Source: a virus
Reading direction: 5' to 3' (one strand)
Virus record (IMG/VR): IMGVR_UViG_3300027730_002125
Coordinates: 1 to 47,780 of that record
DNA length: 47,780 nucleotides
Positions 8,879 to 26,775 of the stretch are shown here, piece after piece (the first letter of the stretch is position 1; each line of letters opens with the position of its first letter). The translations under genes and the position numbers were made by a program. Under the pieces are notes generated by a model. That model worked only from the letters and a program-made list of their open reading frames with translations, was not told the DNA's origin and ran no database searches.

Positions 8879-8885
8879 CCATTAT

Positions 8886-9461: not shown

Positions 9462-9511
9462 AAGAAGGACGCGGCAACAAAGGCGGCGTAAAGACTGAAA
9501 AAATTGTTATA

Positions 9512-9964: not shown

Positions 9965-9994
9965 CTAACCATAATACCCAGCACTATCAAAATT

Positions 9995-10174: not shown

Positions 10175-10182
10175 AGATTAAA

Positions 10183-10521: not shown

Positions 10522-10851
10522 TTATTTATTCTTATCGATCACTGTCTTATAGAGATAAGCAACACTCGGATAGGTAAACCAAGCTAAAAACGGGAAATAC
10601 GCAGGTAAATCAAAAACTATATAAAAACTAACACCTATACACAAAGATCCCCAGAAGGAGCTACAAATATAGCAGCCAAGTAATTTTCCAAAAAATGGTG
10701 ATTTAAATAGCAATGCTGTTTCAAAGTCGGCATTGCTATGGATGCTCTTACTAATAAAAATTTGTCCTAAAGTTGTTTTTATTGGACTATAAAACCATAT
10801 TAATAATGCTGTAAGGGTTACACCTAAGCCAGAAAGATAGTATTCAATCAT
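10522..10851 (-). CDS. Small membrane protein, DUF1360-like
   Basis: 109 aa with hydrophobic segments near residues 4-22, 55-80 and 84-101. The motif LLGCYICSSFWGSLCIG (about 57-73) matches the C-x-x-C-x-x-F/W-x-G signature of DUF1360 membrane proteins, function unknown. Start ATG at 10851 overlaps the stop of the dehydrogenase gene (ATGA). Position at the downstream end of the sugar cassette may be incidental. Confidence 0.65.
   Translation of the reverse strand: MIEYYLSGLGVTLTALLIWFYSPIKTTLGQIFISKSIHSNADFETALLFKSPFFGKLLGCYICSSFWGSLCIGVSFYIVFDLPAYFPFLAWFTYPSVAYLYKTVIDKNK
10523..10530 (-). promoter_or_regulatory. Late-type promoter AATAAATA
   Basis: Minus-strand NATAAATA match 4 bases before the ATG at 10518; a transcript from it would be almost leaderless. 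Confidence 0.4.
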
Positions 10852-11618
10852 TTTTGCACCCTGTGTTCTTTGTTAATGTTTCTCATAAACTTAATTAATT
10901 TACTCTTACTGAATTTTTCAAACTCTAAATTGTCTTTATCAAAGCAATGTCCGCCCCACCCTCTTTTACCATCCCTACCCGGTACCTGTGTATGTGAAGG
11001 GCCTATACGTTCATCTAATACTAGAAGCTCGACTAACCTTTTATATGATACTGGTATTTTTAATTTCTCATGTATGTTATATAGCTCATTAAAAAAAGTA
11101 ATTTTATATGCTAAAAAACCATTTGCAGCATATTTTACTAGCGCCGCGGTCCTAATATCTGTTAATTCTACTTGCTTTAAAAGTCTTAATCTAGATTTTA
11201 AAACTTTCGATAGAGCAATACATGCCAGACGATCCCCTCCAAAAATAGCAAATTTTTGTAATTGGAAATCACGTATGTTTGAATGGTGGGAGAGATATTC
11301 AGGGCTATGAATTAAATGTATATTCCTATATCTCTTTTCTGCACATTCATAAAATGCTGGAGATGCTGTAGACTTGCAGCAGACAATAGTCCCCTTCTTC
11401 ATATGTTTATCGAGGAGCCAAAGCACACTGTTAAGAGTCTTAAAGTTATTAGTTGCAGGTGTATCTACGCAAACAAATACTGCGTTAAAGCTAATTTGCG
11501 AAACGTCAGTAATTAATAAATTATTAATTCGCGGGTCAATAATAATTTTTTCTGCTTTCTTAAAAATAGAAGATACAGCAGAGCCAACATAACCATGACC
11601 AACAATTAATACTTTCAT
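10848..11618 (-). CDS. Short UDP-glucose/GDP-mannose dehydrogenase-like protein
   Basis: 256 aa, against about 390-450 for the family. The NAD-binding start (VGHGYVGSAV) and the central domain with K162 and N166 (VKYAANGFLAYKITFFNE) are present. So is the catalytic Cys, C225 in WGGHCFDKDN. It then ends about 30 residues later, lacking the C-terminal UDP-sugar-binding domain. The Rossmann domain also looks shortened. It could still be a minimal oxidase acting on an unusual sugar, or a regulatory relic; the active-site conservation argues against decay. It overlaps both neighbours by 4 bases (ATGA). Confidence 0.82.
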   Translation of the reverse strand: MKVLIVGHGYVGSAVSSIFKKAEKIIIDPRINNLLITDVSQISFNAVFVCVDTPATNNFKTLNSVLWLLDKHMKKGTIVCCKSTASPAFYECAEKRYRNIHLIHSPEYLSHHSNIRDFQLQKFAIFGGDRLACIALSKVLKSRLRLLKQVELTDIRTAALVKYAANGFLAYKITFFNELYNIHEKLKIPVSYKRLVELLVLDERIGPSHTQVPGRDGKRGWGGHCFDKDNLEFEKFSKSKLIKFMRNINKEHRVQK

Positions 11619-11794
11619 GATCTAATTATTTTTATGTATTTATCACGAATTTTTATACGCTCACATTCCTTGCATTGTGCAGAGATACTGTTAATTTCCT
11701 CAACAAACGCTTGTCGAAGAGTTTCTCCGTTTTTAATAGAGCTAGGGCATGGTTTAGATAAGTCAAAAAACTGTAAAACTGTCGACACGTCCAT
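11615..11794 (-). CDS. Small protein with Cys pair, 59 aa
   Basis: ATG at 11794, TGA at 11615; the stop overlaps the ATG of the dehydrogenase (11618) as ATGA, strong evidence for a real coupled gene. The sequence begins MDVSTVLQFFDLSKPCPSS and has CKEC near residue 41 with a basic, helical end. Together with the first Cys, the CxxC could bind a metal. No family recognised. A GATAAATA motif (11644 to 11637) lies inside it. Confidence 0.65.
   Translation of the reverse strand: MDVSTVLQFFDLSKPCPSSIKNGETLRQAFVEEINSISAQCKECERIKIRDKYIKIIRS
11637..11644 (-). promoter_or_regulatory. Possible late-type promoter GATAAATA
   Basis: Minus-strand NATAAATA match 18 bases upstream of the dehydrogenase ATG, within the small upstream gene. 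Confidence 0.35.
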
Positions 11795-11859
11795 TCAGCA
11801 ATTTTAGTACAACTTCTTGTAAAATCAAGAATCTGAGCTAAATTAAGATACTAATTCAT

Positions 11860-12666
11860 ATGAATACAGCATTACTCTTTGCACTGAATGACGACTTCAT
11901 TCTTAGTATGAAAGTATTTTTACTGAGTTTAATTAAGACTAATCCCTGGTTCGACGGAGATATCTTGCTTCTGTCTGATGGTAATCTTTCTAATGAAAAT
12001 ATAGAATCAGTTAAATTACTATACAAACATATCAAAGTATTACAGCCCAAAAAAAATGATTATACTGGATGTAAGCCTACTACAGAGCAATGGGGCTATA
12101 ATCTTTTCTATAGGTTTGATGTTTTTGAAATGGGAGACCTGGGATATAATAGAATTATAATTCTGGACTCCGACATGGTTGTACTTAAGGATATATCAGA
12201 GTTGTTTAATTATGATTATGATTTTGGTTCTTGCAGAAAGCATTTAGGTATTCCTGAAATAGGTCCTAATGATCCCAAGGTTAGAGATAAAGAGCGCTTC
12301 AATTGTGGTTTAATGTCAATATCAAAGAATATTCTCAGACCGTATTATAAAGATAAGCTAATACGGATAGCGTCACGGAAGAGTTGGTCTAGCGATCAAC
12401 CTGTCTTTAATATCTGCTTCGAAGATACTGTAAAGTATCTTCCACAAGAATTTAATGTGGTGAGTTCAATAGCTACAGGAAAAATGCTTCAGAGTGCAAA
12501 TATTATACAGTATCATGGATTCACTAAACCATGGCATTCAGATGACCCTAAAAAATGCTTTGAGCCGTTTGTATTAGATGAATTGAGCAAAGTAGCTACT
12601 GATACAAATAAAGAGGCAGAAAACCTTAAGAGAATTTTTGATTCGTATGCTAAGCAATGTGTCTGA
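11860..12666 (+). CDS. Family 8-type glycosyltransferase
   Basis: 268 aa, GT-A fold of the GT8 kind (glycogenin/LPS galactosyl- and glucosyltransferases). It starts with the nucleotide-binding strand LLFALNDDFI and has the metal-binding DSD motif at D103-D105. It closes with the family signature QYHGFTKPWH (about residues 217-226). It would transfer a hexose from a UDP-sugar. It is one of only two plus-strand genes inside the minus-strand cassette, starting 65 bases from a divergent small gene. Its 3' end overlaps the convergent deacetylase by 17 bases. Confidence 0.88.
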   Translation: MNTALLFALNDDFILSMKVFLLSLIKTNPWFDGDILLLSDGNLSNENIESVKLLYKHIKVLQPKKNDYTGCKPTTEQWGYNLFYRFDVFEMGDLGYNRIIILDSDMVVLKDISELFNYDYDFGSCRKHLGIPEIGPNDPKVRDKERFNCGLMSISKNILRPYYKDKLIRIASRKSWSSDQPVFNICFEDTVKYLPQEFNVVSSIATGKMLQSANIIQYHGFTKPWHSDDPKKCFEPFVLDELSKVATDTNKEAENLKRIFDSYAKQCV

Positions 12667-13306
12667 GACACATAAAGGCTTCTGCAAATTCTGAGTTACA
12701 CTCCATACCTCTAAGCCTTGCAAGTGTTTCTAAACCTTTTGCTGATCTGGGGTGAGGCTCTTTCATTAATTCACCTGTGTAGCATAAAAGTGAATTTACT
12801 TTATTACGGAATTCTTTATCTGACAGTTTGATATAGTAATTTGGTACAAACATGTTATGGGGTATTTTTAATGATTGATCGGTGGAGCTCGCTATCTCAC
12901 CTACTAAAAATCTCTTCACCTTTAACCCACCCCACACACGTATAAGCCTAGATACGCAATCATATGTTATCTGATGATCCTGGTGATTATCACCCCAGAA
13001 TGTAGTATAAACAATTGTGGGGTCTAATTCATAGAGAGCAGTCTCTAGTGCACGGAAAAGTAATAAGGGATTATCTGATATAGTAATCTCAGGTATATGT
13101 AAGTATTTTATATCGTGATATTTTAAAATGTCTTTGGCTATCCTAGTACACTCTATCTGATACTCAGATCTCTGGTCATTAGGTGCAGCACCACGCGCAA
13201 AAATTACTGTAACATTATCTCCTCCCTGAATATGTTTTTGTATAGCTCCTGCGAATCCAATAGCCTCATCGTCACCATGAGGAACCACTATGACAACTCT
13301 TTCCAT
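12650..13306 (-). CDS. PIG-L/LmbE family N-acetylglucosaminyl deacetylase
   Basis: 218 aa. The Zn-binding start VVPHGDDEAIGFAG corresponds to the family HPDDE motif, with H10 and D13 as ligands, and the third ligand is in DNHQDHQ. These enzymes remove the N-acetyl group from GlcNAc-containing substrates. The GT neighbours suggest an acetylated sugar on a lipid or polymer. I chose the ATG at 13306, because family members begin just before the first motif; an ATG at 13324 would overlap the upstream gene by 11 bases. Confidence 0.88.
   Translation of the reverse strand: MERVVIVVPHGDDEAIGFAGAIQKHIQGGDNVTVIFARGAAPNDQRSEYQIECTRIAKDILKYHDIKYLHIPEITISDNPLLLFRALETALYELDPTIVYTTFWGDNHQDHQITYDCVSRLIRVWGGLKVKRFLVGEIASSTDQSLKIPHNMFVPNYYIKLSDKEFRNKVNSLLCYTGELMKEPHPRSAKGLETLARLRGMECNSEFAEAFMCLRHIA
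12657..12673. terminator. Symmetric hairpin at the convergent gene junction
   Basis: A perfect 7-bp stem (12657-12663 with 12667-12673) with a 3-base loop that is the TGA stop of the plus-strand glycosyltransferase. It covers the junction of the two convergent genes. No T run follows on either strand, so termination is only possible, not shown. Confidence 0.3.
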
Positions 13307-13313
13307 TGATTTA

Positions 13314-14165
13314 TTATATGTCATAATTACAGGTACTCAACTGCGTGCTTTGTTGTTTGCTCAAAAAATACTTTGATAGTTTTTTTAATAAAATGTCTAC
13401 GTATGATCTTCCGTTTAATTTTGTTAATGCTTGTATAATATACGGGTCAAATTGATCTGCTATATTCTTGCTGTGCCAGGGTTTTCTATGCCCAATATAT
13501 TGTAAATTTGGCACTATATTCTTTAAGGTACCGTACCCAACTTCATCAGTACATAAATTATATTGCTTAGGAAGCCAGGTGACCCTTTCTTTAAAAAAAG
13601 TGTTTAAAATAGGCTCATTGCCAACCCATTTTTTTGATAAAACTCTCTCATCTACTGGTGGACCTTGCTTGAGCAGATCAATTAAACCATCTCGAGTTGA
13701 GGAGCTTAAAAATGGCTTACCTATAACCATAACTCCAGCAGCAAAACCTATATTACCTTCAAATTGAAGCATGCGTGTAGCTGGTCTTAGAACAGCGCCA
13801 AAATTAATATCAGATAAAATTAAAGGTGTCATATCAATATTAAAAACAATATCACAATCAAAAAATATTATTTTTTCGTATTCTTTTAGTAAAAATATAT
13901 CAAATCGATAGCCGCAGTTGTACGGCCATATGCGGTGTTCTGTATCATATGTAACTCCTGGGTAATCTGCTGTACGTATAAGCTTAAAAATTGTACGGGG
14001 GTATAATTGTCTTATCTTTTCTTTATTTGCCTCACTGAGTGTACCCCATTCGAAAATAACAATATCATAATTAAAATTAACTGTTGTTGCAATTAATGTT
14101 GAAGCTGCAACCATATAACCCGGTACAAAATTGTCATCTAAGGTTGTTACAAAGGCAGCATTCAT
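13314..14165 (-). CDS. Family 8-type glycosyltransferase (second copy)
   Basis: 283 aa. Same fold and order of motifs as the gene at 11860: FVTTLDDNFV at the start, the DCD metal site at D103-D105, and QYIGHRKPWH near residue 236. The two share clear similarity over the core but are diverged, so they probably act on different acceptors or donors. ATG overlaps the stop of the upstream glycosyltransferase by 4 bases, indicating one transcript. Confidence 0.88.
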   Translation of the reverse strand: MNAAFVTTLDDNFVPGYMVAASTLIATTVNFNYDIVIFEWGTLSEANKEKIRQLYPRTIFKLIRTADYPGVTYDTEHRIWPYNCGYRFDIFLLKEYEKIIFFDCDIVFNIDMTPLILSDINFGAVLRPATRMLQFEGNIGFAAGVMVIGKPFLSSSTRDGLIDLLKQGPPVDERVLSKKWVGNEPILNTFFKERVTWLPKQYNLCTDEVGYGTLKNIVPNLQYIGHRKPWHSKNIADQFDPYIIQALTKLNGRSYVDILLKKLSKYFLSKQQSTQLSTCNYDI

Positions 14166-14905
14166 AGTAGCTTATGTTTTTTTAATAAATTATAAAATAA
14201 TGTTGTTGGTATAGGTTTATTAAAGTTTCTTTTTATAGAGTAATCCCACTGACCTGTGGATGTTGCTTCATTGCACCAATGTAGTGCATACTTTGGTTGT
14301 AGTTCTTTTTTACAAAAAACACCTATGCTGAGCATCTTTCTTATATCTTCAATGTTATCGTTTCCAAACCAGTCAATTGGTGCAATGTATTGCTCCAGAG
14401 AATGTTTCTTGACGCAATCTCTCAATATTTCTACCGGCTTGACCCATCTGTCATTACTTTTATCTATGTGCTTTTCTGTTAATGCTATGCAATCGTCGAG
14501 AAAAGGTGCATTCTTAGGTATTTTTATTATATTACCAACTATCTCCACCTTGTTGTGTGGACGTATTACATACTCGCTGTTGCTAATGGCAGCAAACGAT
14601 TGCAGACAGGTAACATCCATGTCGCAATACCAACCGCCCACAGCTTTTAATAGATAGTATCTAAAGAGATCGGAGAAGCCACCATAACTTCCTGCTCTGC
14701 AATCTCCACGACCTTCGTAAGAAAAAATTCTCGATGATGGTAGAATTTCATTTGCATCTCTCTTAAAGGTACCTTCAGGTATACCCGCACACTCTCCTTC
14801 GTATAACCACACTACCGGCTGATGGCCGTTATCAAAAAAAGATTTTAACGTTAGTTGTTCAAGCTTACCTAATTTATTTCCGATCCATAAAAAATTAATT
14901 TCCAT
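14162..14905 (-). CDS. Glycosyltransferase with DXD motif (Gly_transf_sug type)
   Basis: 247 aa. The opening MEINFLWIG, the SYGGFSDLFRYYLL helix (about 73-86) and GGWYCDMDVTC (D95-M-D97) are the standard elements of the DXD sugar-transferase family related to Och1 and capsular polysaccharide synthases. The R-near-DXD arrangement is intact. It probably adds a sugar from a nucleotide donor. It overlaps genes on both sides, within the cassette. Confidence 0.88.
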   Translation of the reverse strand: MEINFLWIGNKLGKLEQLTLKSFFDNGHQPVVWLYEGECAGIPEGTFKRDANEILPSSRIFSYEGRGDCRAGSYGGFSDLFRYYLLKAVGGWYCDMDVTCLQSFAAISNSEYVIRPHNKVEIVGNIIKIPKNAPFLDDCIALTEKHIDKSNDRWVKPVEILRDCVKKHSLEQYIAPIDWFGNDNIEDIRKMLSIGVFCKKELQPKYALHWCNEATSTGQWDYSIKRNFNKPIPTTLFYNLLKKHKLL

Positions 14906-15797
14906 ATGCGAACCATGGTAGGGGGTAGAGTATGTCTGGCCATAAATTAATGACCTCTTTTATATTATGACAGTCATTGAGAATGTCTTTATTAATACTT
15001 TTAATCGCCTCAGTATACTGATAGCTTTGTGTAATATGTTCTTGCTTTTCTATATCATCCAAGTCTGTGGAGCTTTCTAGTAATTGCTTTAGTATATTTT
15101 CTATATATACCAACGCATTTTCTTTCTGCTTTTCTATTTCATAATACCAAAGCGTTTTAACTGCATTGATAATATCAATATCCTTATTATTAATAATGTT
15201 GTTTGTAGTGCCAATTTGTCGTAGACCAGGTAATATATACTGATCACTATCCTTGACAATAAAAAACTTATTAATTGCATCTTGCTTAATTTTATTGCTA
15301 ATTATTTCAGCAGATTCACCCGGTGTGGGTAGTTCAAGGAATCTAACTAAATAGCTTGCATTAATTAAATCTCTATCTGATTTATGCACAACATCCATTG
15401 ACTCTAGAATAAAGGAAATAAACCGCGCGCGCTCTTGATTAATAAAATTTTTAATATTCTCTATGTAGCTTTTGTCTTGTATGAGAAAATCTCTACCAAA
15501 TGTTTGCGCGAGTCCAACATCTTTCGTCAAGTCGTCAAGATAGACATTTGGTGGGAGATGCTGGTACTCTAACACGTCAATACTAAGATTGCTGATATCT
15601 AGTGCTTTGTCGCTAATTACATCTACAAAATCTCCAGCGACTTGGGGTAAACCAAAAAACGAAGCATACTTTGAGCTGCAAACTATAACAAATTTCTTTG
15701 AAGAGTTTTCCGAAAAGAAAATCTTAATTACTACCCCTCGATCAAGAAGAGTTGTAGTCAGCGGTAACAGGGATCCGCTACACATAGTATGGTTCAT
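14895..15797 (-). CDS. Unknown protein with C-terminal WPDIL motif (300 aa)
   Basis: Function unknown. The N-terminal part is beta/alpha mixed, and from about residue 205 it is a long charged helix. It ends in VINLWPDILYPLPWF, nearly the same as the end of the protein at 20809-21723 (LLKFWPDILAPGPSLL). Helix-plus-WP endings recall C-terminal pieces of phage tail-fibre assembly proteins, so one idea is a fibre-related adaptor. It is coupled to RfbH by ATGA (15794-15797). No membrane segment or signal. Confidence 0.6.
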   Translation of the reverse strand: MNHTMCSGSLLPLTTTLLDRGVVIKIFFSENSSKKFVIVCSSKYASFFGLPQVAGDFVDVISDKALDISNLSIDVLEYQHLPPNVYLDDLTKDVGLAQTFGRDFLIQDKSYIENIKNFINQERARFISFILESMDVVHKSDRDLINASYLVRFLELPTPGESAEIISNKIKQDAINKFFIVKDSDQYILPGLRQIGTTNNIINNKDIDIINAVKTLWYYEIEKQKENALVYIENILKQLLESSTDLDDIEKQEHITQSYQYTEAIKSINKDILNDCHNIKEVINLWPDILYPLPWFAYGN

Positions 15798-17101
15798 TTT
15801 TTATTTAACATTTCTTTATAGTTTGCAATAACTGTAGCAATATACTGTATATGCTCTTTTGAAATAACAGGTGCACATCCTAGAAAAAATACTTTCTCAA
15901 GTACACTACATGCGTTTGGGTAGTTTCGCCAATCCTCAAGATGTGAATATGCAGGGTGTAAGAGTATGTTGCCTGCAAAATAATTTCGAGTTTGAATATT
16001 ATTTTCTTCAAGATAGCTAATCAGGCGCTGCTTTGTAGCAAACGAATCGCATATCACAGGTACGCCAAACCAAGACACATCTGCATGTTGATATGATTTT
16101 GGATATTTTAAATATGAGAGAGTACTTAATATTTGTTGAATTTGACGCTTATTACTTTTTCTGACTTTATGAATAGTATTAATTTTTTTTAGTTGTGCGA
16201 GCCCAATACCGCCTTGTAAATCTAACGGCTTAAGGTTGTAGCCAATTTGAGTAAAAAAGTATTTATGGTCTATTGGATAGGGTAGGTCTTTTATCCATTT
16301 GCTAAATCTACAGCCGCAGGCACCGCATTTTGCAAGGTTTGCAATACCAACACAAAAACAATCTCTTCCCCACCAACTAAATGTCCTTGCTATTTTTATA
16401 ATTTCTTCATTATTGGACGATACCATACCGCCTTCTCCTGTAGTTAAGTGATGTGCCGGATAAAAGGAACAGCTTGAAGCGATAAAATACTCATTTAAAA
16501 GTTTGCCCTTCCATTTTGTACCTAGACTATCACAACCATCAAGTATCAATTGAATGTTATATTTTTTTTGTATAGTAAGCAACTTATCTATATCAGGCGG
16601 GTTGCCTAGTACTGGTGAAACAAAAATAGCACGAGTATTGCTGGTAATCTTTTTTTCGAGCTCTGCTAGGTCAAAATTAAGAGTTTCATATTCTATATCA
16701 ACAAATACCGGTTTAAGATTATTTTGAATAATAGGATTTAAAGTTGTTGGGAAGCCAACTACTGAAACTAATATTTCATCTTTCTCGGTCCAATTAAAAT
16801 ACTTCTTAAGCGCAGCTATCATAACCAAATTAGCAGAGCTACCAGAGTTTACCATGAGTGAGAATTTGCTATGTGTATATTTGCTAAACTCTTGTTCAAA
16901 CTTATGCACTTTTTCACCACTAGTAAACCATTTGCCGAAAAGTATTGAATCGATAGCTTCGAAGATTTCATCTTCATCAAATAGAGGGCCTGAGTATAGA
17001 ACCCTATCCTTACCCGGTTTTAAATTACGACTACACTCAGGAATAAAGTATTGCGACTTTACTTCTGCTAAAAACTTTTTAATAAGGGCTTGCTTACTCA
17101 T
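15794..17101 (-). CDS. RfbH-type sugar 3-dehydrase (PLP and iron-sulfur, E1-like)
   Basis: 435 aa, full family length. The fold is DegT/DnrJ/EryC1, but the PLP-Lys position holds His (H217 in SFYPAHHLTTGEGG), the mark of dehydrases such as RfbH/E1 and ColD. Cysteines C190, C248, C250 and C259 reproduce the E1 iron-sulfur pattern C-X57-C-X-C-X7-C except for one extra residue in the last gap; C262 and C264 are nearby. In E1 this centre passes electrons to remove the C3 hydroxyl of CDP-4-keto-6-deoxyhexose. Product here: probably a 3,6-dideoxy or 3-deoxy sugar. No reductase partner is visible in the window. Confidence 0.88.
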   Translation of the reverse strand: MSKQALIKKFLAEVKSQYFIPECSRNLKPGKDRVLYSGPLFDEDEIFEAIDSILFGKWFTSGEKVHKFEQEFSKYTHSKFSLMVNSGSSANLVMIAALKKYFNWTEKDEILVSVVGFPTTLNPIIQNNLKPVFVDIEYETLNFDLAELEKKITSNTRAIFVSPVLGNPPDIDKLLTIQKKYNIQLILDGCDSLGTKWKGKLLNEYFIASSCSFYPAHHLTTGEGGMVSSNNEEIIKIARTFSWWGRDCFCVGIANLAKCGACGCRFSKWIKDLPYPIDHKYFFTQIGYNLKPLDLQGGIGLAQLKKINTIHKVRKSNKRQIQQILSTLSYLKYPKSYQHADVSWFGVPVICDSFATKQRLISYLEENNIQTRNYFAGNILLHPAYSHLEDWRNYPNACSVLEKVFFLGCAPVISKEHIQYIATVIANYKEMLNKK

Positions 17102-17726
17102 TTTTCAATTCGAGTAGTTTTCCACTCTTACTATTTTCGAAATCATACACAGAGAGATCTGGGTAATTATTTGTGGTAATATCTGGTTGCTCACCAACCA
17201 TAGTTGATAGTAACCATAATCCTCTTGCAGCATCAGAGTTAGTCATATAAAAATTCCATCCCAGCATACGAAAAGTGTCTCCGGTATGATTTACCGGGTT
17301 GCGGCCATTGAATCGTGCTAATTTAAACCATCTAGCTGCTTCTATATCATCTGTTAAAACCATTCCGCCGCGGCCGATCTTTAAATGTTTTTTAATATGA
17401 AAAGATAAACAATGAAAGCCTCCCGCATACATATTTCGCTTAAATCTCACTGCCCCGTCAAATATAGGCAATGGCTTGAGTTGATATATACCTGTCCAAT
17501 TTAAATCTTCAAACTGAACCTTATATCCAGCATGAATTATGGAACTTGGCACAGAAATATATGTATATTTTGGAAGTGTTATACGTTCAGGTTGTCTACT
17601 ACAATACATTAAAGACAAAAACAGCGCATTTGTACATGAATCTACGGCTATAGCATATTTTGAGCCTGCAAATTCAGCAATTTCTCTTTCAAATTGCTCA
17701 ACAACGTCATAAGCGTTACTATTCAT
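17094..17726 (-). CDS. Short DegT/DnrJ/EryC1-like PLP protein
   Basis: 210 aa, only about 55% of a usual aminotransferase of this family. It keeps the large-domain motifs: the FAGSKYAIAVDSCTNALFL start, D90 (PIFDGAVRF) and the PLP-Lys region SFHIKKHLKIGRGGMV with K113 as likely Schiff-base Lys. It ends before the C-terminal domain. It could be a reduced active form, dimerise with the adjacent RfbH-like protein, or be a partner without activity. The ORF is clean and coupled on both sides, so it is not obviously decaying. Confidence 0.8.
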   Translation of the reverse strand: MNSNAYDVVEQFEREIAEFAGSKYAIAVDSCTNALFLSLMYCSRQPERITLPKYTYISVPSSIIHAGYKVQFEDLNWTGIYQLKPLPIFDGAVRFKRNMYAGGFHCLSFHIKKHLKIGRGGMVLTDDIEAARWFKLARFNGRNPVNHTGDTFRMLGWNFYMTNSDAARGLWLLSTMVGEQPDITTNNYPDLSVYDFENSKSGKLLELKNE

Positions 17727-18216: not shown

Positions 18217-18267
18217 TAACTTATTATAGCGTCTTGATAATAAAAAACAATACCCTAAAATAATATT

Positions 18268-18966: not shown

Positions 18967-19829
18967 TTTTTCCAAAATCTCATTTCTAGAGAAACTCGAG
19001 TTGTATTTTTATTAAAATTAAAACCACCACCGTGAATAGTGTAGGGGGTAAATACCATTACTTGTTCAGGTCCAGGGTTGGGTGTAATTAAGTTAAGACC
19101 TTTCGCTGCAGCGATTGTTGCCGGGTTAGTATACTTAACACCATTTGCATAGGTATCTCCATACGTGCGTACTATTTCTGATTCAGACCAGAGATGACTA
19201 CCTGGAATAATAGGAAGAGAGGAATCATTTGTACTACCGGCAAGAGGGAAGTACAGATTCACCGCGCCACGGTTTCTGTCCAGATGCACATCACGGTGGG
19301 GCGGGTTATTGTCTTTGTAGTGCTGTGGGCGTACTACTCTGAGATGAAAGTGTTGTACAGTGTAATTCTTTCCATCGCCTAGGTCAAATGTCTTCCTGGC
19401 TGTGACTTTGGTTTCACATATCTGGCTGATTCTTTCATCTATTTCATTAATACTAAGAGGAAATTTATCCATAGAGATACCACCTGTACCCTTAGATCCA
19501 GACCTTATTACATCGGCAAATTTAATATGTGTTGCATCATCAACAAAATTATGATAATTTTCAAGTTTAAATCCATGTGTTTCTACTCCAATTGAATTTA
19601 AAATATCAACAATAATTTCCTTGATTCCCTGTCTTATTATTTCGTTTTTTTCTGGTGTTAAGAATTCCTGTACGGTATACCCCATTTCTGCCCATGGCAA
19701 AGAAGTACTGACTGGAGTAGTATCCATATTAAACAACACTTCATCTTTACCTGGAGCTATATTATCAGCAGATACAAAAACCTCAACCGGGCGACTATTA
19801 ATAGTCATTTTCGACAAAAAATCACTCAT
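18963..19829 (-). CDS. Phytanoyl-CoA dioxygenase-like Fe(II)/2OG oxygenase
   Basis: 288 aa. The metal triad is visible: H178 and D180 (PPHRDVHLD) and H266 (PYTIHGGGF), with R278 binding 2-oxoglutarate. The loop LPIIPGSHLW is typical of the PhyH family, which hydroxylates or desaturates small molecules. The substrate is unknown; the sugar context suggests a glycan or an amino-acid-like decoration. It lies downstream of a 98-base gap (19830-19927) that holds no gene, and converges on the Asp-hydroxylase gene. Confidence 0.82.
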   Translation of the reverse strand: MSDFLSKMTINSRPVEVFVSADNIAPGKDEVLFNMDTTPVSTSLPWAEMGYTVQEFLTPEKNEIIRQGIKEIIVDILNSIGVETHGFKLENYHNFVDDATHIKFADVIRSGSKGTGGISMDKFPLSINEIDERISQICETKVTARKTFDLGDGKNYTVQHFHLRVVRPQHYKDNNPPHRDVHLDRNRGAVNLYFPLAGSTNDSSLPIIPGSHLWSESEIVRTYGDTYANGVKYTNPATIAAAKGLNLITPNPGPEQVMVFTPYTIHGGGFNFNKNTTRVSLEMRFWKN

Positions 19830-19927
19830 ACCTTATTAATTTATCCTCATTTCTAGCACTTTCAACATTATTTTTGATAAGTCTGAGTATATCCCATATA
19901 TGTATTCTACAGTATTACCTGGGAAAT

Positions 19928-20812
19928 CTACAAATACCAATGACCATATAATTTCATTGCTTCAATTTTTTCTGCTAATCTAAGTTTTGGGGCTGCATGG
20001 GAGTGAAAGTTATAATGAACAAGATAGCAAGTATCTTTAACTTGCTCCCTTAAATACGGTACTTTCCATAGACTACCATTTGGAAAATCATACACTGATA
20101 GTACCTTAATATTAACTCCTGTTTCGTTAATTAATGCTTTGCTGTTAGCTATTGTTTGTAGGCTACCTTCTTGCACACCAATTGGAAATTTTTTATATAT
20201 CTCTTCGCTGGTAATTTTCTCTAGATACGCTAAATTTTTTTCTTTAGTATTTTGCGGTAGATACATTACAGCACCGTTTTTTTCCCCAAATTTTGCTTGT
20301 TCTGCTAACCCCCAATCAGAAACAGTTGTTTTGCCGTAGTCTACTGTAATAATTCTATCTTTTACACGCTTGTGTGTAAAAGTATGAAACCGTCTATCCG
20401 ACGTCATAACCATATCGTAACCAGTAGCATCTTGCTCTAATTTCGGGATAAAATTTTTAAAAAATACAATATCTGTATCTAGATGTATAAGGTTAAATGA
20501 ATAGTTTTTATATAAATGCAGAGCACCTCGAGGGTTAAATCTCTTCGCATTTTCTATCCATTGTGCGGCAGTATTATTTTCCATCCTTGCATCTATAAGA
20601 GCGCAGGGAATGTTTTTTGCCTGCAGCGTATCGTATGATTTTTTGTCCAGCGCTATAACAAAAGCTATCCCATGTAAGTTAACCCTTTTTAAGGACTCGT
20701 ACCAGTTTAAAAGCATTTCTATAAAATCATATGTGGTATTAGTAATTATTACGGTACTCTTGTTCTTTATAAAGCTATCCAGGCTTTCCGCACCACTGTC
20801 AAATATACTCAT
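19928..20812 (-). CDS. Nucleotide-diphospho-sugar transferase (Nucleotid_trans type)
   Basis: 294 aa. The DTD metal motif at residues 112-114 (IHLDTDIVFFKN), the preceding RGALHLYKNYSF helix and FHTF region after it match the PF03407 family of glycosyltransferases. The start is set at ATG 20812, where ATGA overlaps the stop of the upstream gene; an ATG at 20860 would add 16 residues inside that gene. Role: transfer of a sugar to a protein or glycan acceptor. Confidence 0.82.
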   Translation of the reverse strand: MSIFDSGAESLDSFIKNKSTVIITNTTYDFIEMLLNWYESLKRVNLHGIAFVIALDKKSYDTLQAKNIPCALIDARMENNTAAQWIENAKRFNPRGALHLYKNYSFNLIHLDTDIVFFKNFIPKLEQDATGYDMVMTSDRRFHTFTHKRVKDRIITVDYGKTTVSDWGLAEQAKFGEKNGAVMYLPQNTKEKNLAYLEKITSEEIYKKFPIGVQEGSLQTIANSKALINETGVNIKVLSVYDFPNGSLWKVPYLREQVKDTCYLVHYNFHSHAAPKLRLAEKIEAMKLYGHWYL

Positions 20813-21723
20813 GAATATGGAAATAGTAATGACGGCCCTGGAGCTAGTATATCCGGCCAAAATTTTAATAGTTCATTTGGAGTTTTGTAGTTTTCAAGAT
20901 TTAAATTTGATACTGTATTCTTTAGTTCGTTTTGTATTAAGTCTATTTCTCTCAAAGATTCTTTATCATCAAATTTAATAGCGCTTTCTTGTTCTTCTTT
21001 CAACAACTCTAAAGCCTTTTCGTAGGTCTGAAAGATAAGCTGCCTCCAGTGAGTTCTCATGGATTGCATTACTGATTCATTTGCGCTATTGAAATCCGCA
21101 AATCTTAACCCTTCTATATTGAACGTCTTAATGCATTCAGTTATCCAATTGTATTCCCTGTCGTACAACTCAATAAATTCCTGTAACCCCGGGTACAGCA
21201 TATTGTAGAGCTTAACCCTAATTGAATGAATGTAGTTGTATGCACGTGAGGTATTATTCTCTCGATAGAATGTATTGAACGGCAGATATTGAAGCAATAT
21301 GGATCCATCTGTAATAGAGGTAATGCGGGAATGAATTTCTTCTGAATAGCAGCTTCTACAGTACTTGCATCTTAGAAATAACAATAATTTTTTTCTATAA
21401 GCTGCAAGCAGGATATCCTCTCTTCTATAAAAAACGTCCTGTACCTTGACACCTAAGCTACGAGCTATAAAGAAATGCTCTGACGAAGCAATAATCTCAG
21501 GGTCGTTAGCTAAAGAAGAACTAGCATAATTTTTATTTTTCTTAAAATACTTTATTTCGTTTTGATCAACTTGATAATCAATTTGCTTAATATCTATTGA
21601 TTCCTTACTAAGATCACGATCTGTTAATATGCTTCGCCCTTGCAGAAGGTAGTCTTCTTGTATTAGACCATGAGGCTGGGTAGTAAATCGTATTTTTATT
21701 ATATTATCTGTTACAATATTCAT
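20809..21723 (-). CDS. Unknown protein with C-terminal WPDIL motif (304 aa)
   Basis: Second member of the pair with 14895-15797. N-terminal beta-rich region (about 1-50), a Cys cluster LRCKYCRSCYS near residue 120, then mostly helices. Residues about 215-285 are a charged helical bundle that resembles the same region of its partner, followed by ELLKFWPDILAPGPSLL. Function unknown; candidates are an adaptor for glycosyltransferases or a fibre-linked chaperone. Coupled by ATGA to both the radical SAM gene upstream and the glycosyltransferase downstream. Confidence 0.6.
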   Translation of the reverse strand: MNIVTDNIIKIRFTTQPHGLIQEDYLLQGRSILTDRDLSKESIDIKQIDYQVDQNEIKYFKKNKNYASSSLANDPEIIASSEHFFIARSLGVKVQDVFYRREDILLAAYRKKLLLFLRCKYCRSCYSEEIHSRITSITDGSILLQYLPFNTFYRENNTSRAYNYIHSIRVKLYNMLYPGLQEFIELYDREYNWITECIKTFNIEGLRFADFNSANESVMQSMRTHWRQLIFQTYEKALELLKEEQESAIKFDDKESLREIDLIQNELKNTVSNLNLENYKTPNELLKFWPDILAPGPSLLFPYS

Positions 21724-23120
21724 ATATTATCAGGTTTGTTATACTTATAGCCGTCAAGAGATTTTACAAAATCAATATATTGATTCTGTATGGTTTTATT
21801 TGCAGATAACGTATCTATGTGCTTGGCAAGTGTTTCGGCAATTGCATCTAGCTGCTCAGTGCTTAGAGAAGACAGGCAAAATTCAGGTATTAGAGGACCC
21901 TTGGCATCAATAATTTGTTCTATCTTACTATCATCTCCCGTCCAAACACTTGTATTGTTTACTTCACCTTCATGAATTCCTCTTATTCTACCGCCAAGCG
22001 GCTTTGTGACGGTGTTTATATATAGCGCAATACTATTATCTATACAAAATTTTGCTATTGCTGGCAGTTCCAACACATTTTGTATGAGTGGACAAAACGC
22101 AATTGTTGACAATCTCTTCATTGCTAAAAACTCAAAAATATTCTTCATGACCAAATCAAAATTTCCGTTCTTGCGTATGAGCTCATATGTATCTCTCTTA
22201 AGAGAATCAAGAGAAACAACCACTCTCATATTCCTCTTAGTAAGATATTCTCTAACTTTAGACGACAATATGGACCCGTTAGTTGTTACATATACTGCAC
22301 AGCTAGGATTATGCTCAAATATTTTATCCCATATCTTATAATATAGGGATGTTAGAAGCGGTTCCCCTCCTAAAAAGTTGGCAAGTCTTAGGTGCTTAAT
22401 GAACGGCAAGAGCTCATTCACAAAGTTATCATCATATGGTGATATAATTGGTGGTAGCTTCTCCCTATTTTTTCTGATTGATGAAGACCATTTGCCGCCA
22501 CACATTATACATTCAAAATTACAAATGTTACCAAATTCAAACTCCATATTGATGGGCATATCAGATAGAGCTGGTTCATAAACATCAAATTTAGTGAACA
22601 GTGCATTATTGATATTATTTGTAACAACTTGGAATCTACATTTATCACAACCTTTGGGGAAGTCTAATCTGGAAAGCTTTTTAATAAATAAATCTCGTTC
22701 AGGGTTATTCCAAGCATCTGCTATTGATACTGACGGGTATGCACCCAATATGAAGTAATTGTTATAACAACACACCCTTATTTTACCTGTAGTATCAAAG
22801 TTTAGGGTTGAGTAGGGAGCAATACAGCAATTTTTGCTATTGTTAAATTTGAAATCTTTAATAGGTTTATTATACTTAAATTCATCAACTAACTCATTGT
22901 GTATAAAGCCTGCTATGGTTTCGTATGGAAGTTTTTCTGAAATAACTAAATAATCGATAGCTGAAGAAATTGTTTTATTATTTCTTACCCCGGGATTATT
23001 TAGCAATTCATATTCCAATTTTATTACAAATTCTTCCTTTGTAAAAGCTGTATTTTTCTCAGTATTAATCTTACTAAAAATACAATATAGATCTTCAATT
23101 CTTGAATCAGAGACTTGCAT
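21720..23120 (-). CDS. Radical SAM protein with N-terminal SPASM/twitch-like Cys region
   Basis: 466 aa from the ATG at 23120 (a GTG at 23138 would add 6 residues). The radical SAM [4Fe-4S] motif is C200-x3-C204-x2-C207 (NICNFECIMCGG), followed by FLGGEPLL and the TTNGS strand. Unusually, the auxiliary-cluster-like cysteines come before the core: CC at 98-99, CC at 117-118, and C158 and C161 (KGCDKC). Such enzymes modify peptides, sugars or cofactors through a 5'-deoxyadenosyl radical. With a methyltransferase upstream and WPDIL protein downstream it may modify the cassette product. Confidence 0.87.
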   Translation of the reverse strand: MQVSDSRIEDLYCIFSKINTEKNTAFTKEEFVIKLEYELLNNPGVRNNKTISSAIDYLVISEKLPYETIAGFIHNELVDEFKYNKPIKDFKFNNSKNCCIAPYSTLNFDTTGKIRVCCYNNYFILGAYPSVSIADAWNNPERDLFIKKLSRLDFPKGCDKCRFQVVTNNINNALFTKFDVYEPALSDMPINMEFEFGNICNFECIMCGGKWSSSIRKNREKLPPIISPYDDNFVNELLPFIKHLRLANFLGGEPLLTSLYYKIWDKIFEHNPSCAVYVTTNGSILSSKVREYLTKRNMRVVVSLDSLKRDTYELIRKNGNFDLVMKNIFEFLAMKRLSTIAFCPLIQNVLELPAIAKFCIDNSIALYINTVTKPLGGRIRGIHEGEVNNTSVWTGDDSKIEQIIDAKGPLIPEFCLSSLSTEQLDAIAETLAKHIDTLSANKTIQNQYIDFVKSLDGYKYNKPDNI

Positions 23121-23859
23121 ATGCTTCTGTTTGTGCACCCTTCATTTCTATGTACTGGAGTACCCTATCAATTTGTTCGTTACAAAAGACCCTAAGAGTA
23201 TCTTTGTCAGATTCTGATGTCGAGTAGTCCGTCCAATCGAGAACAACAAACTTATTGCCAATAGATAGGAACGAATCAAATAAAGATTTGTCAGATATAA
23301 AATTGTTCCTAGGGCTTCTGATATTAGCCGCAATTATTATGTCATACTTTTTTAGATCTAGATTCTGGAAAGGTTCATTATAAAACGGCAGGTCAATATT
23401 AAACAGTTGGCACATATGTTGAGTGAGACTTTGTCTGTGTGGGGTGAAGTCACATGCTTCTATGTCTATATTTTGGCTCTTCAAATAAATAGAAATTTGA
23501 CCGGCACCACATCCTATCTCTAGTATTTTTTTATCCTTAAAATACTGTTGAATAACAGTAACAAGTAATAATTCTTTATCGGTAAAAATTTCATTCCTTT
23601 TTAATTTATCACAATATGTACCGGCAGCTTCACCCAACAAAATGCTGTCTGCCTCTCTATTATTAATTTTACACAAAAGTCTTGCCTTTGTGGTAAAAGA
23701 TTTTAAATGGAGACAAAACTTATCACTGAATTCTCTAATTTTAAATGCTTCTGTAATTAGTGATAATAATTTAGCTTGAATACTGCTAGTTTTATGACTT
23801 GCAACAGCCTCTTGCAAATACAGCAGATCGTCTTTATTTAGTTGACGATTAAACTTCAT
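23107..23859 (-). CDS. SAM-dependent methyltransferase (class I)
   Basis: 250 aa. Motif I is KILEIGCGAGQISIYL near residues 114-129, acidic end of strand 2 is IEACDFTP, and strand 4 is YDIIIAANI. The N-terminal 100 residues are helical. A sugar or small-molecule O- or C-methyltransferase is the simplest reading from context, but protein or DNA cannot be excluded. ATG at 23859 lies inside the 3' end of the upstream glycosyltransferase (11-base overlap). Confidence 0.82.
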   Translation of the reverse strand: MKFNRQLNKDDLLYLQEAVASHKTSSIQAKLLSLITEAFKIREFSDKFCLHLKSFTTKARLLCKINNREADSILLGEAAGTYCDKLKRNEIFTDKELLLVTVIQQYFKDKKILEIGCGAGQISIYLKSQNIDIEACDFTPHRQSLTQHMCQLFNIDLPFYNEPFQNLDLKKYDIIIAANIRSPRNNFISDKSLFDSFLSIGNKFVVLDWTDYSTSESDKDTLRVFCNEQIDRVLQYIEMKGAQTEAYASL

Positions 23860-24793
23860 GCTTTATTATATAATCTAATGTAATATTATCAACCTTAACG
23901 TAATTTAGCATTTTATGAGAAAATGCTTTATTAATAATTGATTGAACATTTATCTCAGGTAAAATTTTTTGTATTTGCTTGGCAAAAATAGTTCTAAATA
24001 TTTCTTGTTTCTTTATGCAGTTGTTTCTTATGTCCACGCTGTTGAAGGAATCAATATTTTTTAATGCAATCTCAATAGCTTTGTCTAATTCTATTTCATC
24101 AGGATTAACTACAATTGAATTGTACTTGTCATACCACGTCTGTCTTCCCCCAACACTCTTTGTACTAATCACCGGTAACCCACATAACAGATACTCAGTA
24201 GATGCATAACAGGATCCTTCTTTTGTGGAGAGAGCCAACCCAATCCTACACTTATTAAGCTCTTCAACCACCTTATGTGTACGGATTTCATTTAAAATAC
24301 ATGCAGGATTATATCGCTGTAAATCATTATTTGATGTATTGTACGTTATGAAGAGTGTTTTGTATTTTCTGTTAATCTCTGTTAACAGGTGATGATTTTT
24401 CCATTCGGAATTATTGGCATTAATGACCAGGTCATACTCCTTTTTTATCGGCATTATATTAAAGATGGATGCATCTAGCCAACAATTTTGATTGCAATAT
24501 ATTGAATTTAATTTATGTCTCTTATAAAAAAGATCTTCATCAATTGAATTTGCTAGTATTATAACATTTGTAGTGTATTTTTCCAACAGCTTATAGTGAT
24601 TGACACCATCTTTATACCACCAGGGAATTAAAAATACATATACGTCTTTATATTTAGATTTAATTTCTTTAAAAAATGTCTCAACTTGAGCAAAAAGGTT
24701 TGCATCGTGTATCCACGTACTAATAAAAATTACTATAGTTGTATCAGTTCTATACAGTACTTTTAGGTTTATAGATTTTGATTTAACACTCAT
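23849..24793 (-). CDS. Glycosyltransferase family 1/4 (GT-B fold)
   Basis: 314 aa. The C-terminal donor-binding region is clear: GLALSTKEGSCYASTEYLLCGLPVISTKSVGG, with the E-x7-E type signature, then the NSIVVNPDEIELDKAIEIAL helix. The N-terminal acceptor domain is short (about 120 residues), making it smaller than usual GT4 enzymes. It is the only GT-B enzyme in the cassette. Overlaps both neighbours. Confidence 0.82.
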   Translation of the reverse strand: MSVKSKSINLKVLYRTDTTIVIFISTWIHDANLFAQVETFFKEIKSKYKDVYVFLIPWWYKDGVNHYKLLEKYTTNVIILANSIDEDLFYKRHKLNSIYCNQNCWLDASIFNIMPIKKEYDLVINANNSEWKNHHLLTEINRKYKTLFITYNTSNNDLQRYNPACILNEIRTHKVVEELNKCRIGLALSTKEGSCYASTEYLLCGLPVISTKSVGGRQTWYDKYNSIVVNPDEIELDKAIEIALKNIDSFNSVDIRNNCIKKQEIFRTIFAKQIQKILPEINVQSIINKAFSHKMLNYVKVDNITLDYIIKHEV

Positions 24794-25427
24794 CTAGAAT
24801 ACTCTTGGTTTTTCCATCGTAAATATAGGGCCAGAGTCGTTCGAGGGTCCACGCACAGTACCCAGCCCCCCTTTTATCGGATATATTTTCATATATGTGT
24901 TTATAGAAATTATGTGAATGAAATGTTATTCTTGATCTTGGTACAATCAATTGACCACCAATATAAAAGATAAATTCTGTTTTTTGAATTTTAAATAGCT
25001 TTTCATATATTCGTATTACATTTGAATTCAATTCATAACATAATTGATAACTTTCAATTCGCTCGATAACCTGGGTACCCATTGGCTTGACTCGTGGCAA
25101 ACCTCTAAAATTGTTTATTTCACTGTAAAGATTTTCAATTGGTTCCATGGTTTCCAGTGGTCTGTTGGACAGACAGTTGCCTTCAGAAAAAAATACGTAA
25201 TCAGGCAAATTGTGGTAATTAGTCACAATGTAATGCAAGTATGTATGTGCCTCTCTGCCTATGTTGGGCAGATTTATGAAGCGTGAATCTGCACACTCTT
25301 GGTCTTTGTTGTAGATTGTATACGGTACACCTGCATTTATGGCCCAATCTATATTTTCCTTGTATTTTGCAACAACCAAGTGTATGTCTAGTTTACTGTG
25401 GTTCACACAGTGATTTATTTGTCTCAA
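24783..25427 (-). CDS. DUF3431 family protein (putative glycosyltransferase)
   Basis: 214 aa. Residues 15-80 follow the DUF3431 pattern: IHLVVAKYKENIDW, then IYNKD, then LPNIGREAHTYLHYIV and LPDYVFFSEGN. The family has a GT-like fold, but no activity is established to my knowledge. The start at 25427 is TTG; no ATG precedes the conserved region. It is 12 bases from the fibre-type gene at 25440, so the sugar cassette appears joined to the fibre operon. Confidence 0.78.
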   Translation of the reverse strand: MRQINHCVNHSKLDIHLVVAKYKENIDWAINAGVPYTIYNKDQECADSRFINLPNIGREAHTYLHYIVTNYHNLPDYVFFSEGNCLSNRPLETMEPIENLYSEINNFRGLPRVKPMGTQVIERIESYQLCYELNSNVIRIYEKLFKIQKTEFIFYIGGQLIVPRSRITFHSHNFYKHIYENISDKRGAGYCAWTLERLWPYIYDGKTKSILDEC

Positions 25428-25439
25428 AGGATTATTCTA

Positions 25440-26210
25440 TTAAATATATCCTAGAGTAGTGACGTTAACTGCATTACTCTGACAAGAGAAATTGTTTATA
25501 ACATAACAGCTATAAGCAGTATTACCGCAAAATATTGCTGCAGAGTCATATGTCGAAGTATTACCAGCAACTGTGGATTGAAGAACTCCTGCAATGTAGT
25601 AAGAATTAGAAGAACCTAGCACACCGTTATAGCTGCCTGCATTACCACTGAGTCTTAATGAAGCTCCATAGCATAATGCACCGCAACCGCCACCAGTATT
25701 GCAAGGTCGTGGTGGACGTGCTAAACCAACCCCAGTTAAAGAAGGTTTGGGTGGTGAGTAGGTTGTAAAAGATGTTGTAGTTAATGCAGTATTATAATTT
25801 GATGCAGTTAGGTTAAACCCGTCTGCAAAAGTTACTGTTACTGTTCTTGTTGTGGAAGAGCTGCAACTTGTTGAGCCGGGATTATATGCATTTGTATAAA
25901 TTCTGCTATATCCGTTATTAGTTGTTAGTGTTAGATTGGCAGGTGTTGACCAGGTGAAATTTGCACTACGGCTTCCTATTCTTGACAAAAATCGAGCACC
26001 AACACCAGTAAAGTTAGATGTTATAGTTATAGTTGAGCCATATGCAACCGTGGCTACGCTTGCTGTGGGGGTTGTAACCCCTGTAATAGAAAATTCACTT
26101 ACCGAAATAGGTGTTGCTGTGCTTCCAGCTGCAGTACCTAGACTCTTGGGTGAAGCACCTGTCGCGGCCGCTAATGCGTTTATTGAAAGGTTGTCGCCAG
26201 GGCTAGGCAT
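25440..26210 (-). CDS. Ser/Thr-rich, Cys-containing phage structural protein
   Basis: 256 aa, no family recognised. Ig-like or other beta-sandwich pattern in residues 35-150 (SITGVTTPTASVATVAYGST, VTVTFADGF). The C-terminal third has six of the seven cysteines (CNTGGGCGALC, FCGNTAYSC, NFSC), unusual for a cytoplasmically assembled virion protein. The N-terminus MPSPGDNLSINALAAATGAS looks like a fibre-adaptor tail. Same strand and 2 bases from the S74 fibre gene, so it is likely a fibre or decoration protein expressed late. Confidence 0.7.
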   Translation of the reverse strand: MPSPGDNLSINALAAATGASPKSLGTAAGSTATPISVSEFSITGVTTPTASVATVAYGSTITITSNFTGVGARFLSRIGSRSANFTWSTPANLTLTTNNGYSRIYTNAYNPGSTSCSSSTTRTVTVTFADGFNLTASNYNTALTTTSFTTYSPPKPSLTGVGLARPPRPCNTGGGCGALCYGASLRLSGNAGSYNGVLGSSNSYYIAGVLQSTVAGNTSTYDSAAIFCGNTAYSCYVINNFSCQSNAVNVTTLGYI

Positions 26211-26212
26211 GA

Positions 26213-26761
26213 TTACTCACCCCGTGCTTGTTCTAGTAATTCAACCTTTTTGCTAAGTTCCTTGATTGCTTCAATCAATAGTGGAACAATTTTCTCGTAT
26301 TGAACAGTTAAATAATTTTCACCAGATTTACTTGCGCCATTTTCATCTGTATCAAACGGAGCAGGTTTAATTACTTCAGGCAATACAGCCTGAACCTCTT
26401 GAGCAAGTACTCCAACTTTTTGATCGTTCTCTGTAAAGCCATATTTTTTAGCTACATCATTATGCTTGTATAATACACCAGAAATAGAATTTACCTTTTC
26501 AAGGGCGTTGGGTATAATACTTACAACATCCTTGAGTCGCTTATCAGAGGAGAAGGCTGTAATATCGCCTGTAGCAGTCGCTGCACCAATTACAGCTAGA
26601 TTACCATTTGTTGTTAACGCGGCAATTGATAGAGCATACATAGTCGCGCCGCTAGTTAGAGCATTTCTTAATTGCGCGGGATTAATACTGGTTACAGTGC
26701 TAGCACCCGTTGTAATATCAGATGAAGTTGCGAAGTTGACAGAAATTGTTGCTACGGCCAT
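26213..26761 (-). CDS. Short tail fibre with C-terminal S74 intramolecular chaperone
   Basis: 182 aa. The C-terminal half is an S74 peptidase/chaperone domain, which trimerises and then cleaves itself off fibres. Motifs are SSDKRLKDVV (S72 and K77, spaced like the S911/K916 dyad of endosialidase), KVGVLAQEVQAVLPEVI, YLTVQYEKIVPLLIEAIKEL and a coiled-coil end. The N-terminal 70 residues are beta-rich and short, so the mature fibre piece is very small. CATAAATA lies 6 bases upstream and would lead transcription toward the sugar cassette. Confidence 0.88.
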   Translation of the reverse strand: MAVATISVNFATSSDITTGASTVTSINPAQLRNALTSGATMYALSIAALTTNGNLAVIGAATATGDITAFSSDKRLKDVVSIIPNALEKVNSISGVLYKHNDVAKKYGFTENDQKVGVLAQEVQAVLPEVIKPAPFDTDENGASKSGENYLTVQYEKIVPLLIEAIKELSKKVELLEQARGE

Positions 26762-26767
26762 ATAGCT

Positions 26768-26775
26768 TATTTATG
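26768..26775 (-). promoter_or_regulatory. Late-type promoter CATAAATA for fibre/sugar operon
   Basis: Minus-strand NATAAATA match ending 6 bases before the ATG at 26761. No terminator-like hairpin with T run was seen between here and the sugar genes to 19.9 kb. Confidence 0.5.

Follow-up and report, generated by a model that had tools for sequence, protein, structure and literature searches.

An exchangeable glycan gene island with predicted early-class promoters beside the fibre gene of a T4-like phage

Do carbohydrate genes that adjoin the tail-fibre genes of a phage serve the virion or the infected cell? The question is raised by IMG/VR virus record IMGVR_UViG_3300027730_002125, a fragment of 47,780 bases that was analysed at its full length (the window, labelled G000 in comparisons). 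By its gene content, the region between 10848 and 25427 is a coherent carbohydrate cassette beside fibre genes. A preliminary description of the sequence had proposed that the cassette is expressed late, together with the fibres. Glycan islands of T4-like phages are commonly attributed to superinfection exclusion or to virion decoration, with no evidence on timing. The promoter sequences lead us to favour, with moderate confidence, an early-expressed glycan island that uses host nucleotide sugars and remodels the host envelope.

The detailed comparison covered nine T4-like phages, the window and eight relatives. Among the related records, G001 encodes the same cassette proteins as the window, one UnkB residue apart, and G002 is a close sister whose proteins are mostly 80-97% identical. 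The 229,717-base contig G006 carries the major capsid protein (MCP), TerL and DNA polymerase genes and a gp55-like late sigma factor gene, and these four products are 30-44% identical to their counterparts in Pelagibacter phage HTVC008M. The portal protein of the window shares 31% identity with cyanomyophage portals, and its identity to 39 IMG/VR loci is 48-100%. The window belongs to a distinct T4-like lineage, which is probably freshwater, judging from its resemblance to lake phages.

Two promoter classes were found in this lineage. The first is based on ATAAATA, the most enriched 7-mer upstream of open reading frames (ORFs), with 13 occurrences vs 0.6 expected in the window and 47 vs 2.5 in G006. 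The motif is not enriched in the window overall (23 found, 26 expected), and its position alone is informative; in 29 G006 cases it lies 4-6 nt ahead of an ATG. As in T4-type late transcription, TATAAATA-like promoters stand before virion genes and a gp55-like sigma gene is present in G006. The late-class promoter CATAAATA (26768-26775, minus strand) ends 6 nt ahead of the ATG of the S74 (chaperone of endosialidase) short fibre gene (26213-26761, minus strand; PF13884 4e-12; PHROG tail families, E down to 1e-30). This promoter had been recognised in the preliminary description, and it keeps its register in all nine compared phages.

The second, early class was defined as a sigma70-type -35/-10 pair, scored out of 12, in a fixed register with the start codon. 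Such a site, TTGATA-N16-TATAAT (23865-23892, minus strand), lies 5 nt before the methyltransferase ATG with a score of 11/12 and is also present at the same gene in G002. The PIG-L deacetylase gene has TTGAGT-N16-TATAAT (13313-13340, minus strand; 10/12) 6 nt before its probable start at 13306, and an early-class site is found at this gene in all five compared phages that carry PIG-L. A divergent block of 51 bp (18217-18267, both strands) holds TTGATA(18234)-N16-TAAAAT(18261) on the plus side for the hydroxylase gene (10/12) and TTGTTT(18250)-N16-TATAAT(18223) on the minus side (9/12) for an operon of a small gene in the position of a GNAT N-acyltransferase, mini-DegT and RfbH. The block is kept between the window and G014 though the flanking small proteins are only 36% identical. 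A weak site precedes the PhyH-type dioxygenase gene (19838-19865, minus strand; 9/12).

The early register was chosen after the first sites had been seen, and the main support for this class comes from a genome-wide count in G006 and from controls at internal ATGs. When the whole region was scanned for generic sigma70 sites, no excess was seen (71 sites vs 79 expected in shuffles); a signal emerges only if the -10 box must be in register with the start codon. Across the nine islands, early sites were found at 20/143 first ATGs vs 5/462 internal ATGs (Fisher p = 1.8e-9, for related phages that are not fully independent). Early scores of at least 10/12 occur at 24 of the 271 gene starts of G006 vs 15 of its 7054 other ATGs, and TATAAT ends exactly 6 nt ahead of the ATG in 19 of the 271 ORFs. 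The corresponding counts for the late motif are 38/271 and 14/7054, and no G006 gene has both kinds of site. In G006 the class labels agree with gene function. The site nearest upstream belongs to the late class for the virion genes portal, S74, fib2, tail collar, MCP, gp21, gp6 and gp53, and to the early class for the DNA-metabolism genes gp44, UvsX, nrdA and nrdB; for several other G006 genes, such as TerL and DNA polymerase, no site was found.

Several cassette genes have early-class promoters of their own and, therefore, a single late operon is not supported. In a single late fibre-glycan operon the cassette genes would lack such promoters. The methyltransferase, PhyH, hydroxylase, GNAT-position and PIG-L genes speak against the proposal of late expression with the fibres, and the promoter sequences, as distinct from transcripts, predict the separate early transcription of the sugar genes that the preliminary description had itself set against a late operon. 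The cassette had also been placed on the strand of the fibres. This is correct for most of it (minus strand), but a GT8 glycosyltransferase gene (11860-12666) and the hydroxylase gene (18268-18966) lie on the plus strand and are outside the fibre transcript for that reason. No well-scoring early site was found for the first two cassette genes, DUF3431 and glycosyltransferase group 1 (GT1), so late read-through into them from 26768 is possible.

These data bear on the main rival to envelope remodelling, virion glycosylation, in which cassette and fibres are expressed together and the sugars go onto the fibres or other virion proteins, with UnkA and UnkB as fibre-assembly or acceptor proteins. 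The cassette adjoins fibre genes with a conserved late promoter, UnkA and UnkB directly precede glycosyltransferases, members of their family directly follow the fibre module in G009 and G019, and UnkA has a late-class site in G014. Glycosylated virions are also known in mycobacteriophages (cited in PMC12619734). The early-class promoters on several enzyme operons argue in the other direction, as does the position of some enzymes on the opposite strand, and the RfbH and lipid-hydroxylase-like genes suit envelope chemistry. We consider virion glycosylation possible, though rather unlikely.

What the enzymes could make was judged from their profiles. Six glycosyltransferase-type genes had been described, and Pfam supports five: Glycos_transf_1, group 1 (23849-24793, minus strand; PF00534 7e-7), Nucleotid_trans (19928-20860, minus; PF03407 5e-13; true start probably an internal ATG), a GT32-like enzyme of the DXD sugar-binding type, Gly_transf_sug (14162-14905, minus; PF04488 4e-8), and two of GT8 (13314-14165, minus, PF01501 1e-13; 11860-12666, plus, PF01501 2e-19). 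The sixth is probably the DUF3431 protein in a glycosyltransferase-like position (24783-25427, minus; PF11913 1.4e-15). The deacetylase, dehydrase, two dioxygenases and radical S-adenosylmethionine (SAM) protein named in the preliminary description likewise have Pfam matches. The PIG-L family deacetylase is at 12650-13324 (minus; PF02585 3e-15), and the dioxygenases are an Asp/Arg hydroxylase-family protein, Asp_Arg_Hydrox (18268-18966, plus; PF05118 1e-34), and a PhyH-type 2-oxoglutarate (2OG)-Fe(II) enzyme (18963-19829, minus; PF05721 4e-6). The radical SAM/twitch protein (21720-23138, minus; PF04055 9e-11) reaches 140 bits with NF033640 (cut-off 170), and its SPASM match is slightly under the cut-off. 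The SAM methyltransferase (23107-23859, minus; PF13649 2e-5 and related families) has significant matches slightly under the curated cut-offs. Linkage mostly by 4-11 base overlaps was borne out at 9 of the 13 same-strand junctions; of the other four, two overlap by 32 and 52 bp (non-ATG starts), one has a gap of 98 bp and one is interrupted by an opposite-strand gene.

Five genes had escaped the earlier description: mini-DegT, UnkA, UnkB, UDP-glucose 6-dehydrogenase (UGD) and UDP-galactopyranose mutase (GLF). UGD (10848-11618, minus) is short, without the C-terminal domain (PF00984 8e-14; PF03721 1e-9; phrog_9148 9e-35), and ATAAATA lies about 18 nt upstream of it. GLF (29570-30562, plus) is outside the island, near the portal gene, in 3 of 17 records only (G000, G001, G002).

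Two enzymes of sugar chemistry stand in the operon of the divergent block. The RfbH/E1-type nucleoside diphosphate (NDP)-4-keto-6-deoxysugar 3-dehydrase (15794-17101, minus; 3bcx 4e-78) aligns over its full length with 3bcx; a His replaces the lysine that binds pyridoxal phosphate (PLP), and the Fe-S cysteines are kept. The phage enzyme shares this His and Fe-S cysteine motif with RfbH and E1 CDP-4-keto-6-deoxyglucose-3-dehydrase, but at 381.9 bits it stays below the equivalog cut-off of 423 of NCBIfam NF011936. The system also differs in its partners: none of the RfbF/RfbG type was found in the phage, and no search was made for an E3 reductase partner. Mini-DegT (17094-17726, minus; PF01041 1e-23) has a sugar-aminotransferase fold of ~210 aa with a PDB profile match to perosamine synthase, with which its invariant K113, the PLP lysine of the SxHxxK region, is aligned. 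It lacks the C-terminal domain and an internal segment of the complete two-domain fold (360-400 aa), and 63 of 64 distinct loci encode 196-249 aa. At least 557 viral matches were found in IMG/VR vs 11 in GTDB genomes; these matches in cell genomes, looked at for host assignment, are mostly on contigs of metagenome-assembled genomes. The commonest viral neighbours are GNATs, FkbM methyltransferases and sugar epimerases, a neighbourhood that fits amino-sugar formation and N-acylation, with a putative acyltransferase in the window.

That putative acyltransferase is the small protein at 17719-18216 (minus), which takes the N-acyltransferase position beside mini-DegT and whose orthologue lies ahead of mini-DegT in four of the five phages with both genes. 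It had been described as an acetyltransferase. Its assignment as a GNAT was put to three tests, and none was supportive: no Pfam, PHROG or PDB profile matches it, even at E 10. The hydroxylase at 18268-18966 has the lipid hydroxylases OlsC and LpxO as its nearest curated families.

The absence of a sugar-1-phosphate nucleotidyltransferase, noted in the preliminary description, was confirmed, as no NTP_transferase (PF00483) matched in the window or in 10 relatives, G006 among them. No Wzx-type flippase scored above the cut-off in the window or the relatives searched, and a GDP_Man_Dehyd-type enzyme (GDP-mannose dehydratase) was found in other relatives only and not in this phage, of which the window is a fragment. 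With none of the three found in this phage, as far as the fragment extends, it probably depends on host nucleotide sugars, as had been suggested, and on an existing acceptor.

The lipid-hydroxylase likeness and the early-class promoters together lead us to favour remodelling of the host envelope. In this scheme, host RNA polymerase would make the island enzymes from early infection, given the host-type promoter sequences, and nucleotide sugars would be taken from the host. The RfbH-type dehydrase, mini-DegT and its partner, the deacetylase, hydroxylases, radical SAM protein and methyltransferase could then yield an unusual deoxy- or amino-sugar, which the several glycosyltransferases would attach to an envelope glycolipid or protein of the host. 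The most likely outcome would be a changed cell surface, e.g. against superinfecting phages. The late fibre promoter may in addition serve the first cassette gene or the first two. Envelope or surface remodelling has been proposed for related islands (PMC7029224; PMC7824862; PMC9723584).

Several points weigh against envelope remodelling. The matches to OlsC and LpxO are 97.7 bits (NF052565) and 85.0 bits (NF033391), with cut-offs of 450 and 500, and the GNAT assignment failed its profile tests. The promoter class rule is imperfect, since the G006 3D and hydrolase genes have an early nearest upstream site. No early-class site was found before some island operons (e.g. GT8 at 11860; the GNAT-position gene in G002), and late-class sites occur at a few island genes of relatives, such as UnkA in G014. 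Early expression alone is also compatible with later glycosylation of virions.

Is the cassette a fixed possession of the lineage? In the nine phages the left flank is exo - dCMP deaminase - S74 fibre, and the S74 gene keeps its position as the conserved left boundary of the island. The right flank, where sequence reaches, is g10183 - phosphoribosyltransferase - 3D - hydrolase - tail collar - g6481/g6131 - nrdA - nrdB. In the window the conserved right boundary (8390-10518, minus) consists of g10183 and phosphoribosyltransferase-like, 3D-domain-like and cell-wall-hydrolase-like genes, named from sequence motifs, and their order is kept in relatives. Further along this flank, g6131 and g6481 (6131-7011, minus) are tandem paralogues in the same order in all relatives that cover them. 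Between the flanks the content changes. The window and G014 have PhyH - hydroxylase (opposite strand) - small protein - mini-DegT - RfbH; G002 and G007 have DUF6356 - Trp halogenase - small protein - mini-DegT - PhyH; and G019 has two fatty acid (FA)-desaturase-family proteins - small protein - PhyH - mini-DegT. The island of G014 also has a carbamoyltransferase gene, that of G006 has a different set, with three genes for radical SAM proteins and one that is asparagine-synthase-like, and those of G012 and G015 are only ~5 kb long with no matches to the cassette enzymes of the window. By this comparison of sequences, the cassette is therefore an exchangeable hypervariable island at one fixed locus, with content swapped in modules, and the small protein, mini-DegT and PhyH are its recurring core.

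The exchanged genes raise another possible explanation, that the tailoring enzymes being exchanged (halogenase, carbamoyltransferase, hydroxylases, radical SAM, methyltransferase) build a secondary metabolite or decorated sugar, a small molecule in place of a surface glycan. Trp-halogenase, carbamoyltransferase, asparagine-synthase-like and desaturase/hydroxylase-like genes do occur in the islands of relatives, which resemble cyanophage clusters for which a secondary metabolite is one option (PMC7824862). We nevertheless think a small-molecule product improbable: this island has several glycosyltransferases from at least four families, the sugar-specific RfbH, mini-DegT, UGD and GLF are present, and no assembly-line enzymes were seen.

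T4-type phages glycosylate DNA bases, and the glycosyltransferases could in principle act on the bases of the phage DNA. That precedent, along with the weak point that dCMP deaminase and exonuclease-like genes adjoin the fibre, is set against the nature of GT8, GT32-like and RfbH/PIG-L as envelope- or protein-type enzymes, the free exchange of island content among relatives, and the window, where no base-hydroxymethylating gene was recognised. DNA hypermodification was judged very unlikely.

UnkA (20809-21723, minus) and UnkB (14895-15797, minus) are paralogues of ~300 aa with a common C-terminal helical domain ending in LLxxWPDILxPxP. UnkA is directly upstream of the Nucleotid_trans gene in G000, G002, G007 and G014, and UnkB, upstream of the GT32-like gene in the window, precedes it in all five compared phages with this pair. 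Neither they nor fib2 have relatives among 50,697 annotated phages. AlphaFold models of UnkA and UnkB (mean pLDDT 76 each, from 5-sequence alignments) gave no BFVD match at E < 0.001, and the UnkA model gave no PDB fold match at that threshold. In its fold, the C-terminal part of UnkA is similar to a protein of Synechococcus phage S-PRM1 (probability 0.99, E 1.6), which we tentatively equate, by length and motif and not by accession, with a coding sequence of 107 aa. This 107-aa protein matches PF16778 (phage tail assembly chaperone) below the cut-off, and UnkA and UnkB have no direct match to PF16778. The likeness of the modelled UnkA C-terminus to a tail-assembly-chaperone-type protein is a lead only. 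It is doubtful, though conceivable, that UnkA and UnkB are fibre-assembly-chaperone-like, each tied to its own glycosyltransferase and presenting a fibre or tip protein for glycosylation, with the pair swapped along with the sugar module. If true, this swap would let the phage change its fibre glycan coat as a unit.

Fib2 itself (25440-26210, minus) is a Cys-rich conserved protein encoded directly after the fibre gene, and its orthologues directly follow S74 in five of the nine compared phages. No profile or database match was found for it. Of the two fibre-type genes described earlier, S74 is backed by PHROG and Pfam, and fib2 is a putative fibre tip or accessory protein.

Hypervariable glycan and fibre islands are already known in T4-like phages; the location, gene set and two-class promoter layout are different here. 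The host recognition cluster (HRC) of pelagimyophages and cyanomyophages is a hypervariable tail-fibre island with several glycosyltransferases, GT8 the commonest, and radical SAM cassettes, for which surface remodelling and superinfection exclusion were proposed (PMC7029224). Our island resembles it as the one hypervariable locus with conserved flanks in this lineage and in combining tail fibre genes with several glycosyltransferase genes, among which GT8 stands out. It differs in that early-class promoters on island enzymes are shown by sequence and in location, since the HRC lies between VrlC and gp14 (PMC7029224) and the borders here are the S74 fibre and the 3D/hydrolase/nrd genes. No homologue of HTVC008M VrlC or gp14 was found in G006 (230 kb) or the window. 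Jumbo cyanophages carry lipopolysaccharide (LPS)/capsule clusters and halogenase-carbamoyltransferase-2OG clusters (PMC7824862), and there too glycosyltransferase, 2OG oxygenase, carbamoyltransferase and halogenase genes follow one another over long stretches of one strand. In Synechococcus phage S-SCSM2R, a glycosyltransferase gene occurs together with mini-DegT, radical SAM, 2OG and amidinotransferase genes. Unlike the jumbo cyanophage clusters, our island has no NTP_transferase, is inserted beside a conserved fibre gene and uses other enzyme subfamilies.

Freshwater phages that encode ribosomal protein bS21 also carry DegT and polysaccharide genes (PMC9723584), and they share with our lineage the myovirus type and a bS21 gene on the strand opposite the portal gene. 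In those phages bS21 is only a few genes away from TerL and MCP; in G006 it is distant from both, with bS21 at 39 kb, TerL at 139 kb and MCP at 98 kb. In the window the bS21 gene (36011-36214, plus) is downstream of a late-class ATAAATA, and bS21 was matched in 15 of 17 records, the window included. Both promoter classes are so positioned that the predicted transcription start falls on the ATG or right beside it (TATAAT 6 nt and ATAAATA 4-6 nt upstream), and Shine-Dalgarno-like sequences are rare in the lineage (window, G006). From these sequences, the early and late mRNAs of the lineage are predicted to be leaderless. Cyanophage S-PRM1 is without such promoter-to-ATG placement, and HTVC008M has a strong Shine-Dalgarno peak and few late sites in the ATG register. 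Together, bS21 and leaderless mRNAs suggest that the phage may retune host ribosomes to its own messages.

Three further genes of the window were noted. A 978-aa protein (38341-41277, plus) with the subtilisin-like catalytic motifs GHGTHVGG and GTSMASPQTAG is encoded among apparent virion genes and is possibly a virion-associated protease, going by its motifs. A fibre-like protein of 1098 aa (43371-46667, plus) contains repeats, VFIGARAGQANTQGNSNTFVGQNAG among them. An open frame rich in glycine (47700-47780), which continues beyond the end of the window, resembles fibre-tip glycine stretches.

For the evolution of these islands, the comparison shows modules being exchanged around a shared aminotransferase core; PIG-L is the best case of a promoter that stays with its gene across different island contexts. 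With early sites on the enzymes and a late site on the fibre, timing becomes directly testable, and the host envelope ranks before the virion as the first target.

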